DNA of 32,349 nucleotides from a virus. Both the position numbers and the translations under genes were made by a program. Positions 2,280 through 20,708 of this stretch are shown piece by piece. How positions within the stretch are numbered: position 1 is the stretch's first letter; each line of letters begins with the position of its first letter. Below the pieces are notes generated by a model. It was not told the DNA's origin, made no database searches, and worked only from the letters and a program-made list of their open reading frames with translations. Where the stretch lies: IMG/VR virus record IMGVR_UViG_3300028925_011046, positions 1 through 32,349 of that record. The stretch is one strand, 5' to 3'.

Positions 2280-3428
2280 TCACGCCCAGACCTTCAAATA
2301 TTCGTCCATGTGTTCTGGGCAATGATGACCGTAGACGTTCTTGATCATGTCTTCGGTCTTGCCGACTGCCTCAGAAACCTTGCCTGTCGCCAAGCCCTTT
2401 TGGAGCATCCATGTGATGCTGGTGTGCGACAGGATGTGCGGCGAGATCGTGCTGACCCAGCCCGACTTAACGCTATCGTTAGGGGCCTTAAAACCGGCCT
2501 TGATGGCAGTTGCCTGGAACCCCTTGATGATCCGTTTGATCCTCGTGCCATTATAATTGATCACGTAATGACCATTAGTAATGCGCTTGGCGTTTTTGAG
2601 GAACCTCAAAAGCCGTGGCGGGATCGGTGTGGCGTATGGCTGTTTTTTATTGCTCTGTTGTTTGGCTTCATCGATCTCTTTCTGCCAATAAATTTTGCCG
2701 CCATTAAGATCAATGTGACCGCCCCAAGGGTTCCTGAACCATTGCAGCCGCAAGACGGCTTCGGTGCGTTGACCGGTGTAAAGCGCGATCAAAATGAACA
2801 GCACCAAATGAGGGGCCTTCTTATTGCGCCGTGCTTCCCTGATCAGCCGTGCCGCATCAGATCGCGAAAGCCACTTCTCAGCTTCCTTAGCACCCTTGGC
2901 ACCCTTCGGCACCGTTGGTGACCACACGAACGGACGAGCCTTGATGTATTCTTTGCGGTGACAATGATTGATGGCTGCACTTAGGACGCGCAATTCCTTG
3001 CCAGCCGTTGCAGGTTTAACGCCCTCATCAGCCCTGAACGTCACATAGCCCTTACAGGCAGTTTCATTAACGCCACCGATGCCGGTATCCCAATATCGCT
3101 TGAGATGGCTTATCGCGAGTTCGATGGCATCGACTGCATTCGTCACGGGGCCATGCTCTTGGATGTAGGTTTCGAGGATTTGGCTGATCGTGATTGTATC
3201 GATATTAGCTTGGCCGATTTTTTGCTCTGATAACCACTGGCTAAAATAGGCGTTAGCCTTTTCGGTTTCGTGGAGCGTGGCACCGTCACATGCCTCTTTT
3301 CTTTCGACGCCGTTTTCACGCCATTTGACATACCAGTAGTATTCTCTGAAGTTCTTGACACGTTTGGCCCCGTGCTTCGTGTCGGGGCCGTACAGTTGGA
3401 GCTTTGGTGGTGCTGCTTTACGGGGCAT
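2280..3428 (-). CDS. int: Tyrosine recombinase (phage integrase)
   Basis: 382 residues. An N-terminal arm-binding and core-binding part (about 1-185) is followed by the catalytic domain. The first catalytic Arg is R221 in YTGQRTEAVLRL. The H-x-x-R box reads H331-I-L-S334, so the second Arg is replaced by Ser. The nucleophile is Y366 in KNVYGHHCPEH, a sequence typical of alphaproteobacterial phage integrases. The ATG at 3428 has GGAGAG upstream and lies inside the excisionase-like gene. It would integrate the phage at tRNA-Arg(TCT), whose 3' end is at 2083-2127. The Ser in place of Arg is unusual and may reduce activity, be compensated elsewhere, or be a sequencing error. Confidence 0.9.
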   Translation of the reverse strand: MPRKAAPPKLQLYGPDTKHGAKRVKNFREYYWYVKWRENGVERKEACDGATLHETEKANAYFSQWLSEQKIGQANIDTITISQILETYIQEHGPVTNAVDAIELAISHLKRYWDTGIGGVNETACKGYVTFRADEGVKPATAGKELRVLSAAINHCHRKEYIKARPFVWSPTVPKGAKGAKEAEKWLSRSDAARLIREARRNKKAPHLVLFILIALYTGQRTEAVLRLQWFRNPWGGHIDLNGGKIYWQKEIDEAKQQSNKKQPYATPIPPRLLRFLKNAKRITNGHYVINYNGTRIKRIIKGFQATAIKAGFKAPNDSVKSGWVSTISPHILSHTSITWMLQKGLATGKVSEAVGKTEDMIKNVYGHHCPEHMDEYLKVWA

Positions 3429-3960: not shown

Positions 3961-4695
3961 CTATTTTTCCATACGATCAATGATCAGCTTGACCTGTTGT
4001 GGCCCCCACTTCGGCTTTCCAAAAATCACTTTATCCTTATTATTATCAATTATATTTTGCCGCGCTGGTGTTTCAATCCCCATCGCAGTCAACTCGGCTG
4101 CAATCCCCCTTAGTGTTTTTATTCCAAAGGTGTCGCGTATCCGCACCACAAGCGGGTACGTTTTTTCGCAATATTTTTCAGTGTTAGCCAGACGAGCCGC
4201 CGCGCCGGCCTTCTGCACAGTCGTAAAATTCTCACTCCCCAGTTTTTTTAAATTTCCGACTTTTCTGCGTTCTTTTATGACTACAGCTAGGCCTCTTTTT
4301 GTGGCCTCGCTGATGCTCCTGGAATATTGCTCTGCCATCGCCGCCATGATGTGAATTGTAAATTCGTTTGCTTCTGGCATATCGCAAGCGACGAACTTAA
4401 TTTTGCTATTCATTAAGCGCGAAACAAAACTGACGTTACGTGCCAGCCTGTCAATACGTGCAACAAGCAATGTTGCTTTATTTTTTTGACACATTTCAAG
4501 GGCGAGTTCTAACTGAGGCCGACGAGCTTTTCTGCCGCTCTCGGTTTCAACGAACTCAGCGATGATATCCCAAGTGCCGCCGTTCAAAAATTGTGAGCAT
4601 GAGTCGCGCTGCGCCTTGATGCCGTTCCCATCTGCGCCTTGCTTCGTAGTCGATACACGCAAGTAGGTTACATACTTACCTCTGTGTTTTGTCAT
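3961..4695 (-). CDS. Serine recombinase (resolvase/invertase family)
   Basis: 244 residues from the ATG at 4695, chosen because AAGGGG lies seven bases upstream; an in-frame GTG at 4713 lacks this spacing. The resolvase catalytic domain is clear: YVTYLRVSTTKQ carries the nucleophile Ser15, and LLVARIDRLARN is the conserved Arg motif. A short C-terminal region with a DNA-binding segment (GIKTLRGIAAELTAMGI) follows. It is a small serine recombinase rather than a large integrase. It could resolve multimers, invert a segment or act as a regulator. No paired inverted sites were found in the window, so its target is unknown. It is transcribed divergently from the early operon. Confidence 0.85.
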   Translation of the reverse strand: MTKHRGKYVTYLRVSTTKQGADGNGIKAQRDSCSQFLNGGTWDIIAEFVETESGRKARRPQLELALEMCQKNKATLLVARIDRLARNVSFVSRLMNSKIKFVACDMPEANEFTIHIMAAMAEQYSRSISEATKRGLAVVIKERRKVGNLKKLGSENFTTVQKAGAAARLANTEKYCEKTYPLVVRIRDTFGIKTLRGIAAELTAMGIETPARQNIIDNNKDKVIFGKPKWGPQQVKLIIDRMEK

Positions 4696-4729
4696 GACGC
4701 ATTTCCCCTTCACGTTTTTTCCACAGTCT

Positions 4730-11116: not shown

Positions 11117-12028
11117 TCAAGCGGCGATTGCCGTTGCTTGTTGATAGCTATAGAGATGGTCCACTATTCGCTGTGCCGCTGCGCATGCCTTTGGTAAAGC
11201 GTTTTTTTCGGTTTTTAGTTTAGTAATCCAAGAGGCGATGTATTGCGCATGGTCTTCTCGTGGCTCTATTTCAATTTGTAAATGCCCCGCCATGAAAGCG
11301 GCGCTCATTTCGGCTGTTAATTCTTCTTGGGCATAGTCTTTAGTCCCAAAAGAACTTTTAAGGCCTCGATCAAGGCGTTTTTCGTGCCCCGTCCAATGCC
11401 CTAGTTCGTGCAAAGCTGTGCCGGCATAGGCGATATAATCATCGAAAGCTTCGCGCTCAGGCATGACGATTGCGTCGTTAGCCGGTGAATAAAATGCCCT
11501 CCCTCCACCGTGCGTAATTTTTGCCCCAGTATTCTGAATGAATTTTTCAACGTTGGCGTCGCGTATCATTGCGGGAATATCTTTTTTTTGCGGATGAAAT
11601 TTTTCAGGTAGTCCGTCGATTTGGTCGGCATTAAAAACGGTGTACCATTTCAAGAACCGAAAAGATTTGTCCGTTTCTTTGTCTTGGCCCGTGCCATAAT
11701 AGCAAACCTTTGTTCCCTTTTCCCCTTTGCGAACGCCGCTTAGCATGCCGGTAGTGGTGTTGGTTGGTGTTTTACTGGGGCTGCCTTCTAATTGTTGCAC
11801 AATATCTTGCGCTTTTTTAAATGTGAACCAAAAGGGATTGGAACGTCCAGACATGCTAAGAATAAACTGATTAAAGCCACGGTAGGGTTCGTTATTCTCC
11901 CGCAGGGCAAGGCCTCCAAGAGCCGACCACGATTTACGCCAAGGCGCGCAGCCGGCCTCGAGGGACTCAATAACCGACTTAGTTATTTCTTGCTCAATGT
12001 TTCGTTTCGTTTTATATATTTTTGTCAT
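11117..12028 (-). CDS. ArdC-type antirestriction protein (ssDNA-binding plus zinc protease-like)
   Basis: 303 residues from the ATG at 12028, chosen because AAGGAG lies eight bases upstream. The N-terminal domain (WRKSWSALGG, YRGFNQFILS, NPFWFTFKKAQDI) is the ArdC ssDNA-binding domain, and GVRKGEKGTKVCYYG is also typical. The C-terminal domain is a zincin with HELGH at 207-211 and the third ligand Glu240 in EELTAEMSAAF. Such proteins protect incoming DNA from restriction in plasmids and phages. It heads a leftward operon with its own promoter and a repeat array upstream. Confidence 0.85.
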   Translation of the reverse strand: MTKIYKTKRNIEQEITKSVIESLEAGCAPWRKSWSALGGLALRENNEPYRGFNQFILSMSGRSNPFWFTFKKAQDIVQQLEGSPSKTPTNTTTGMLSGVRKGEKGTKVCYYGTGQDKETDKSFRFLKWYTVFNADQIDGLPEKFHPQKKDIPAMIRDANVEKFIQNTGAKITHGGGRAFYSPANDAIVMPEREAFDDYIAYAGTALHELGHWTGHEKRLDRGLKSSFGTKDYAQEELTAEMSAAFMAGHLQIEIEPREDHAQYIASWITKLKTEKNALPKACAAAQRIVDHLYSYQQATAIAA

Positions 12029-12123
12029 TTTCAAAGCTCCTTTAAAGATTTTGAGGGTGATAGGGCTGGTCTAGTTCGTAGCTAGGCCGGCCCATTTATT
12101 TTGCCGATTGTGGGTGTGATTTG

Positions 12124-19475: not shown

Positions 19476-19476
19476 A

Positions 19477-19552
19477 GTCGGGTAACCCTTCGGGGTCCGA
19501 CGAGGACGGAAGCCGGTGGCTTCGCAGGGTCCGTATACGGGTAACCCTTTTT
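19477..19552 (+). other. Structured leader before the capsid gene
   Basis: Three stems follow one another in the 113-base gap. The first is GTCGG/CCGAC with an inner ACCC-TTCG-GGGT (19477-19501), a UUCG tetraloop hairpin. The second is ACGGA/TCCGT around AGCC-GGT-GGCT (19506-19534). The third is GGG-TAA-CCC followed by five T (19539-19552). The word GGGTAACCCTT occurs at both ends. It may pause or process the transcript to raise capsid expression. Confidence 0.45.
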
Positions 19553-19588
19553 CACCTTACCTTTTAACTTACGCAAAGGAGAGCAGCT

Positions 19589-20708
19589 ATGTCTGTTCAA
19601 ATCACTACAGCGTTCGTTGAGCAGTATAAAGGCAATGTCGAACATCTCGTTCAACAAAAAGGTTCTCGTTTACGTGCTTGTGTTTCTTCGGAAACCGTCA
19701 CGGGAAAGAATGCCTTTTTTGAACAGATCGGAGATACTGCCGCTCGTATACGAACATCTCGACACTCTGATACGCCGCGAATGGATAAACGGGTTGTCCA
19801 TTAAAAATTCTGTGAATTGCTGGAAACCCCTAACGTAAAGTCGAGGGCAATCAGCAGCCAAGCGCCACAGTAATGTGGTGAAGGTTCAACGACTAGGTCA
19901 TGGAGCCCCGAAGGGGTGGTAAAGGCCCAAGAGCGCAGAACATCTAAAATGATGATGATATAGTCTGAACTGCATGGAAACATGTAGACGCTAAAGATTA
20001 AATGCTTTGGCAAAGAACAAATTGACACCTCACGCAAGGCGGCGTGTTTCTTTGGTTGATTACGATTGGGCCGATCTCATCGATGATGCTGATCGCGTCA
20101 GATTATTGATTGACCCTGCTGGGCCTTATTCGGTTGCTGCGTCCAATGCTATGGGCCGTGCAATTGATGAAGCCATTATCGATGCTGCTGACGGGACTGC
20201 CTTCACGGGCGTTGCTGGTGGCACATCGACGACGTACACAGCAGCCAACACCGTTGACGTTCAAGTCGGTATTTCACCGGCTGCTGACACGGGCCTAAAT
20301 GTTGGTAAGCTGCGGGCTGCTAAACAAGTTCTTGACGCTAACGAAGCTGAAGATAGCGAACGTTTTTGCGCCATTAATGCAAAGCAGTTGCAAAACCTAC
20401 TTGGTGAAACGGAAGTTACAAGTTCCGATTATGCCATGATTAAAGCGTTAGTTCACGGCGAGGTTGACACCTTCTTGGGTTTTGACTTCAAACGCACTGA
20501 ATTGATCGGGGTCGATGCTAACTCCGATCATAAGGTTTTGTATTGGCAAAAAGCAGGATTGAAATTAGCAATCGGCTCTGAGCCTTCAGCGAAAATCAGC
20601 GAACGAGCAGATAAAAACTACTCGACGCAGGTTTTTTACTCAATGGCAATCGGCGCAACCCGCATGCAAGAAAAGCTTGTCGGTTACATCGAATGCGATC
20701 CAACTTAG
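19589..20708 (+). CDS. Major capsid protein, gene split by a group I intron
   Basis: Exon 1 is 19589-19786 (66 codons), exon 2 is 20025-20708 (227 codons and stop), together 293 residues, a normal size for this podovirus capsid family. Exon 1 begins MSVQITTAFVEQYKGNVEHL; the joined sequence runs RHSDTPRMD-TPHARRR and continues VSLVDYDWADLIDDADRVRL, just as in uninterrupted family members as I recall them. Without splicing, a stop at 19802-19804 gives a useless 71-residue product. Exon 2 has no ribosome site of its own. A good site (AAAGGAGAG) precedes the ATG, and a structured leader lies upstream. It forms the head shell. Confidence 0.85.
19787..20024 (+). ncRNA. Group I intron, IA-like, 238 nt, no endonuclease gene
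   Basis: Every core element can be drawn. P1 pairs exon end ATGGAT with guide GTCCAT (19796-19801), with the required U-G pair at the splice site. P3 is 19808-19814 with 19934-19940. P4 is TGCTG/CAGCA; P5 is CCCT/AGGG. P6 is CCACA-GTAA-TGTGG (19865-19878). P7 is GACTA (19891) with TAGTC (19961). Extra stems between P7 and P3' (CCCC-GAA-GGGG at 19906) mark subgroup IA. P8 is CATC/GATG, and P9 is CATG-GAAA-CATG. The intron ends in G at 20024. It resembles the core of the T4 td intron. Its small size and lack of an open frame mean it cannot home by itself. Confidence 0.9.

Follow-up and report, generated by a model that had tools for sequence, protein, structure and literature searches.

Group I introns of phages are known mainly from genes for replication, nucleotide metabolism and lysis, where they usually carry a homing endonuclease. 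Mycobacteriophage LittleE has a group I intron in its major capsid gene, the splicing of which was demonstrated by RT-PCR and by sequencing of the protein N terminus, and in mycobacteriophage BAKA an ORF-less intron of 265 bp in a tail gene is spliced in vivo (PMC3706429). Here, we describe an interrupted major capsid gene of a marine-type podovirus in a viral contig of 32,349 nt (IMG/VR record IMGVR_UViG_3300028925_011046), the whole of which we call the window. The 238 nt between the two parts of the gene constitute a complete IA-type group I intron that very probably splices the capsid mRNA at 19786/20025, and similar introns in relatives of this phage lie at three other places in the gene, which marks the gene as a repeated landing spot. 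A first-pass annotation of the DNA had already proposed a complete IA-like group I intron at this locus, free of any homing endonuclease and removable without gain or loss of capsid sequence; all of this agrees with the covariance-model search, the alignment to uninterrupted capsids and the endonuclease searches reported below.

An interrupted capsid gene and its intron

The capsid frame that opens at 19589 runs into an in-frame stop at 19802–19804 in the ORF translation, and the remainder of the capsid is read from 20025 to 20708. When 19786 is joined to 20025, codon 66 meets codon 67 and a protein of 293 aa results, which scores 286.9 bits against Phage_capsid_2 (PF19821; E 2.2e-85, model positions 1–292 of 293), above the gathering score of 25 bits over the whole model, and also matches phrog_3437, "major head protein". 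Intact capsid relatives, 75–85% identical to the joined protein, continue uninterrupted across the junction with no residue gained or lost, TPRMD being followed directly by TPHARRR or close variants. The spliced RNA predicted from the sequence would read ...GAAUGGAU up to the junction and ACACCUCACG beyond it.

The group I model RF00028 matches 19777–19987 on the plus strand with 89.5 bits (E 7.6e-22) and spans all 253 model positions, against a curated cut-off of 50 bits; it is the single Rfam RNA in the whole window. The stretch from 19777 to 20034 folds more stably than 200 of 200 dinucleotide shuffles (z −3.8). Beyond the covariance score, the features expected of a group I intron are found in the U•G pair within P1, in helices P3–P8 including P7 and in a terminal G that restores the gene (Table 1). 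The 5′ splice site is defined by U19786•G19796, a pair inside the helix that the exon end forms with the internal guide sequence. Extra P7.1/P7.2 stems (19896–19927), which follow the 5′ strand of P7 and precede the 3′ strand of P3, assign the intron to subgroup IA, and a P2 stem is absent. Among the pairings read by hand from the sequence (P1, P9.0 and P10), P10 is short, with 4 bp between 19791–19794 and 20027–20030 (GGGU/ACCU, one G•U) lying 1–2 bases from the junction, and in P9.0 the UU preceding G20024 is complementary to the AA of J7/9.

Comparison with related introns supports this core. When nine capsid-gene introns are aligned, the core helices derived from the window retain 92.2% standard pairs, and 18 of the 40 pairs show two-sided changes, compared with a mean of 7.8 after shuffling (0 of 500 as high) and with 1–3 when the partners are slid. 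In this alignment P5 is poorly paired, a probable effect of its differing loop length, and the P7.1/P7.2 helix model of the window intron differs from that of the relatives.

Table 1. Positions of the capsid exons, the intron and its elements in the window, and intron sites in the capsid gene family
Feature	Position	Strand	Evidence or details
Exon 1, major capsid gene	19589–19786	+	codons 1–66, end ...ATG GAT; ORF, PF19821, phrog_3437, intact-relative alignment
IA-type group I intron of 238 nt without an ORF	19787–20024	+	RF00028, fold z −3.8, covariation with relatives' capsid-gene introns
P1	19780–19802	+	exon AAUGGAU 19780–19786 with GUCCAUU 19796–19802; Rfam alignment and minimum-energy fold
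In-frame UAA	19802–19804	+	18 nt into intron, ahead of catalytic core
P3	19808–19814/19934–19940	+	pairing, covariation
P4	19817–19822/19852–19857	+	pairing, covariation
P5	19827–19829/19845–19847	+	pairing, covariation alignment
P6	19858–19859/19883–19884	+	pairing, covariation
P6a	19863–19868/19875–19880	+	pairing, covariation
P7, expected guanosine-binding helix	19891–19895/19961–19965	+	Rfam, pairing, covariation; encloses P8
P7.1	19896–19899/19924–19927	+	sequence pairing; insertion relative to RF00028 model
P7.2	19905–19909/19913–19917	+	sequence pairing; insertion relative to RF00028 model
P8	19941–19944/19951–19954	+	Rfam, pairing, covariation
P9 with GAAA loop	19970–19976/19981–19987	+	pairing, covariation, fold
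P9.1	19990–19996/20005–20011	+	pairing, covariation, fold
Terminal G (omega G)	20024	+	3′ splice site 20024/20025; intact capsids without extra residues
Exon 2, major capsid gene	20025–20708	+	codons 67–293 and stop; ORF, PF19821, phrog_3437, intact-relative alignment
Site A	after codon 48		L053 (245 nt); L064/L065 (198 nt); L071
Site B	after codon 66		window intron
Site C	codon 208, phase 1		L062 (256 nt); L067/L068/L332 (261 nt); L073 (250 nt); L327/L330 (249 nt); L328 (259 nt); L331 (262 nt); L325, L326 (ended by contig ends or 3′ end not resolved)
Site D	codon 206, phase 2		L176 (248 nt)

Introns at four positions of one gene

Relatives of the capsid protein were searched in IMG/VR, and interrupted matches were then scored with RF00028. 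Besides the window, 16 contigs were found to carry a group I intron in this capsid gene (17 with the window counted, some of them near-identical), counts that give no true intron frequency because the search ranks interrupted genes low. These introns score 56–83 bits, or 88.9 bits in the case of site D, and the window intron has the top score among those compared. Best-fit splicing places a U before and a G after every one of them, and those checked have an in-frame stop 3–14 nt in. The relatives' introns share with that of the window the gene family, small size, lack of an ORF and U/G ends, but they lie at other sites (after codon 48 and in codons 206 and 208) and are 46–63% identical to it over their whole length where aligned. 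At the codon-48 site, two architectures occupy exactly one position, L053 having P7.1/P7.2 and L064, L065 and L071 being without them. A search of other IMG/VR contigs with a 3′-exon pattern returned no second intron at the codon-66 site, and an earlier pattern search based on P1 found no capsid loci. We also considered whether insertion favors the most conserved capsid stretches and rejected this, the window site falling at the 85th percentile and all sites together not reaching significance (p 0.19).

Across 100 whole relative records (∼1.8 Mb), RF00028 matched in nine, once in each and always in the capsid gene. The first-pass annotation had called introns in phage capsid genes uncommon, which holds for phages at large but not within this phage group, where they recur at four sites. 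On the capsid tree, ten intron-bearing rows fall within one group of 29 rows, and at least seven changes of intron label are required on well-supported branches, so that intron presence is patchy, as expected of mobile group I introns, at the level of the capsid gene rather than of the window's own codon-66 site.

The complete capsid-gene introns, all of 198–262 nt, are too small to contain an endonuclease gene, and the window intron, with no ORF inside its 238 nt, lacks the intron-encoded endonuclease associated with homing. Family searches covering HNH_3, HNH and GIY-YIG found no such gene in the window contig; in 16 records, intron-bearing ones included, the same search gave one HNH_3 match of weak length, in an intron-less relative. 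A free-standing endonuclease of these three families near the capsid gene of intron-bearing contigs was rejected on these grounds.

Splicing, alternative readings and origin

We envisage an IA-type intron, derived from a mobile element, that interrupts the major capsid gene of a temperate podovirus akin to the HTVC010P-type Pelagibacter phages. During splicing of the capsid mRNA, AAUGGAU at the exon end would pair with the intron's GUCCAUU to form P1, a guanosine bound in P7 would attack after U19786, and the freed exon would in turn attack after G20024, joining codons 66 and 67 for production of the full-length capsid protein; the chemistry of group I splicing is itself established. The early stop probably halts ribosomes ahead of the ribozyme core, a clearing of ribosomes that is established for early stops in phage introns such as T4 td.

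A real intron might instead end after G20015, a second in-frame G, which would give a capsid with the three extra residues NKL (MDNKLTPH) and insert AACAAATTG between the two exon ends in the RNA. That site keeps the frame and could form a 3-bp P10 between 20016–20018 (AAC) and the GUU beside the guide sequence, but it is very unlikely to be used because NKL occurs in no aligned relative and the UU of P9.0 precedes only G20024, leaving that pairing absent; the introns at other sites, moreover, have as their last base the G that leaves the intact frame exactly restored. Inactivity of the intron, in a dead or defective copy of the phage genome, is exceedingly improbable. The window is a single environmental contig, yet its intron has the best covariance score among the capsid-gene introns scored, every core helix pairs, both exons are open and conserved, and a broken intron in a capsid gene would be lethal. 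An assembly artefact that inserted the intron into the gene has next to no probability: U/G ends, a P1 matched to the exon and an exact frame are unexpected from misassembly, and the same type of event recurs at other sites in independent contigs of several samples, even though the contig is metagenomic and no second one carries an intron at codon 66.

A different question, raised in the first-pass annotation as a control point, is whether the intron is a regulatory switch controlling when capsid is made, a speculation invited by its location in a late, presumably abundant transcript and by the way this phage group keeps acquiring introns in the capsid gene. None of the present results speaks for such a role. 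We judge it very unlikely, as patchy presence, with close relatives both having and lacking introns, fits a tolerated mobile element, and neither a conserved site nor a regulatory partner was seen.

For the IA-type intron, the nearest named core lies in the DNA polymerase gene of Enterococcus phage Pumpjack, with 82% identity to the window core across 133 nt; a Staphylococcus endolysin intron reaches 76% (of query), the nearest site C introns 76–77% and no capsid-gene intron more than 77%. Because the core is nearer to the DNA polymerase intron, a local move from the capsid-gene cousins is unsupported, and the window intron likely arrived independently of them. It is probably a stripped-down descendant of an intron pool common to phages.

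At site C, L067 and the intron-less L013 are 95–100% identical over most of the gene and 70% identical at the codon-208 intron, a flank divergence that fits co-conversion. Because intron-less pairs (L011 and L016, L011 and L019) drop in the same stretch, it is only suggestive of homing. Over capsid codons ∼181–220, these and other contigs (L011, L013, L016, L019 and L067 among them) show ∼70% identity in otherwise near-identical genes whether or not an intron is present, a pattern such as the recombinational exchange of a short tract would leave. Whether the PF19821 capsid gene is a hotspot, entered independently by small endonuclease-free introns at no fewer than four positions and by at least two subgroups that are still spreading between phages via flanking-DNA recombination or reverse splicing, is a tentative proposal to which we give somewhat less than an even chance.

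The phage and its place among known systems

Named-phage relatives of the capsid include Pelagibacter podoviruses (44–56% for the nearest) and others, and the close ones listed match in one piece, without an intron; prophage-like relatives occur in Phyllobacterium, Ensifer and Rhodobacteraceae contigs. The first-pass description of an alphaproteobacterial podovirus is plausible on the strength of these prophage-like relatives and of Pelagibacter podoviruses as the closest isolates. Genes for a tyrosine integrase (2280–3428, −), a serine resolvase/invertase-type recombinase (3961–4713, −) and a LexA DNA-binding domain protein (1367–1777, −) suggest a temperate phage. The gene at 11117–12034 (−) encodes an ArdC-like antirestriction protein that includes a zincin-type metallopeptidase domain.

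Upstream of the capsid gene, the leader at 19476–19588 and at the same position in L002–L073 contains a series of hairpins, which by visual inspection covary between relatives, with an outer stem of GGG/CCC, GUGG/CCAC or CGAG/CUCG, a 1-nt/4-nt internal loop ending in AA or AC and an inner stem of CCG/CGG, CCC/GGG or CUGC/GCAG. The leader has no Rfam match at gathering, the fold of the window leader by itself is no more stable than those of shuffles, and a mixed alignment gave no structure in RNAalifold because distinct leader forms were aligned together. A phage leader RNA that has yet to be described may be present here.

Several small introns, none with an endonuclease, occupy four positions in one capsid gene family, and the genomes searched have no such intron elsewhere. 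The family offers a natural system for the study of intron persistence and movement without an endonuclease, and for asking what price a phage pays for splicing an mRNA that is among its most abundant. Annotation will report the interrupted gene as truncated or missing, and intron-bearing contigs will escape surveys of these abundant marine phages that rely on the capsid. In the open-access literature we found no paper linking group I introns with HTVC010P-type capsid genes, although earlier reports may exist; the one paper there that mentions both concerns genomic islands.

As in the window, the LittleE intron interrupts a major capsid gene with a U at the exon end and a G at the intron end, and its removal restores an intact protein. 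It differs in its length of 819 bp, its LAGLIDADG-like endonuclease ORF, its Actinobacterial siphovirus host genome and its demonstrated splicing, the window intron being known from sequence. Lactococcal phage Tuc2009 (AF109874) likewise has an annotated intron that splits the major head protein gene (mp4), and a 43-nt stretch of its core is 95% identical to the window intron, but that intron is ∼1.2 kb long, contains orf38 and belongs to a Firmicute siphovirus. By description, the BAKA intron resembles that of the window in size class, lack of an endonuclease and location in a virion gene, and differs in the gene, which encodes a tail protein, and in the host phylum. The Pumpjack intron (PV544176), unlike that of the window, lies in a DNA polymerase gene and has an HNH endonuclease ORF between the exons. 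Capsid-gene introns are therefore already documented in LittleE and Tuc2009, and it is the recurrence of endonuclease-free introns at four sites of one capsid gene that is unusual and may surprise the specialist.
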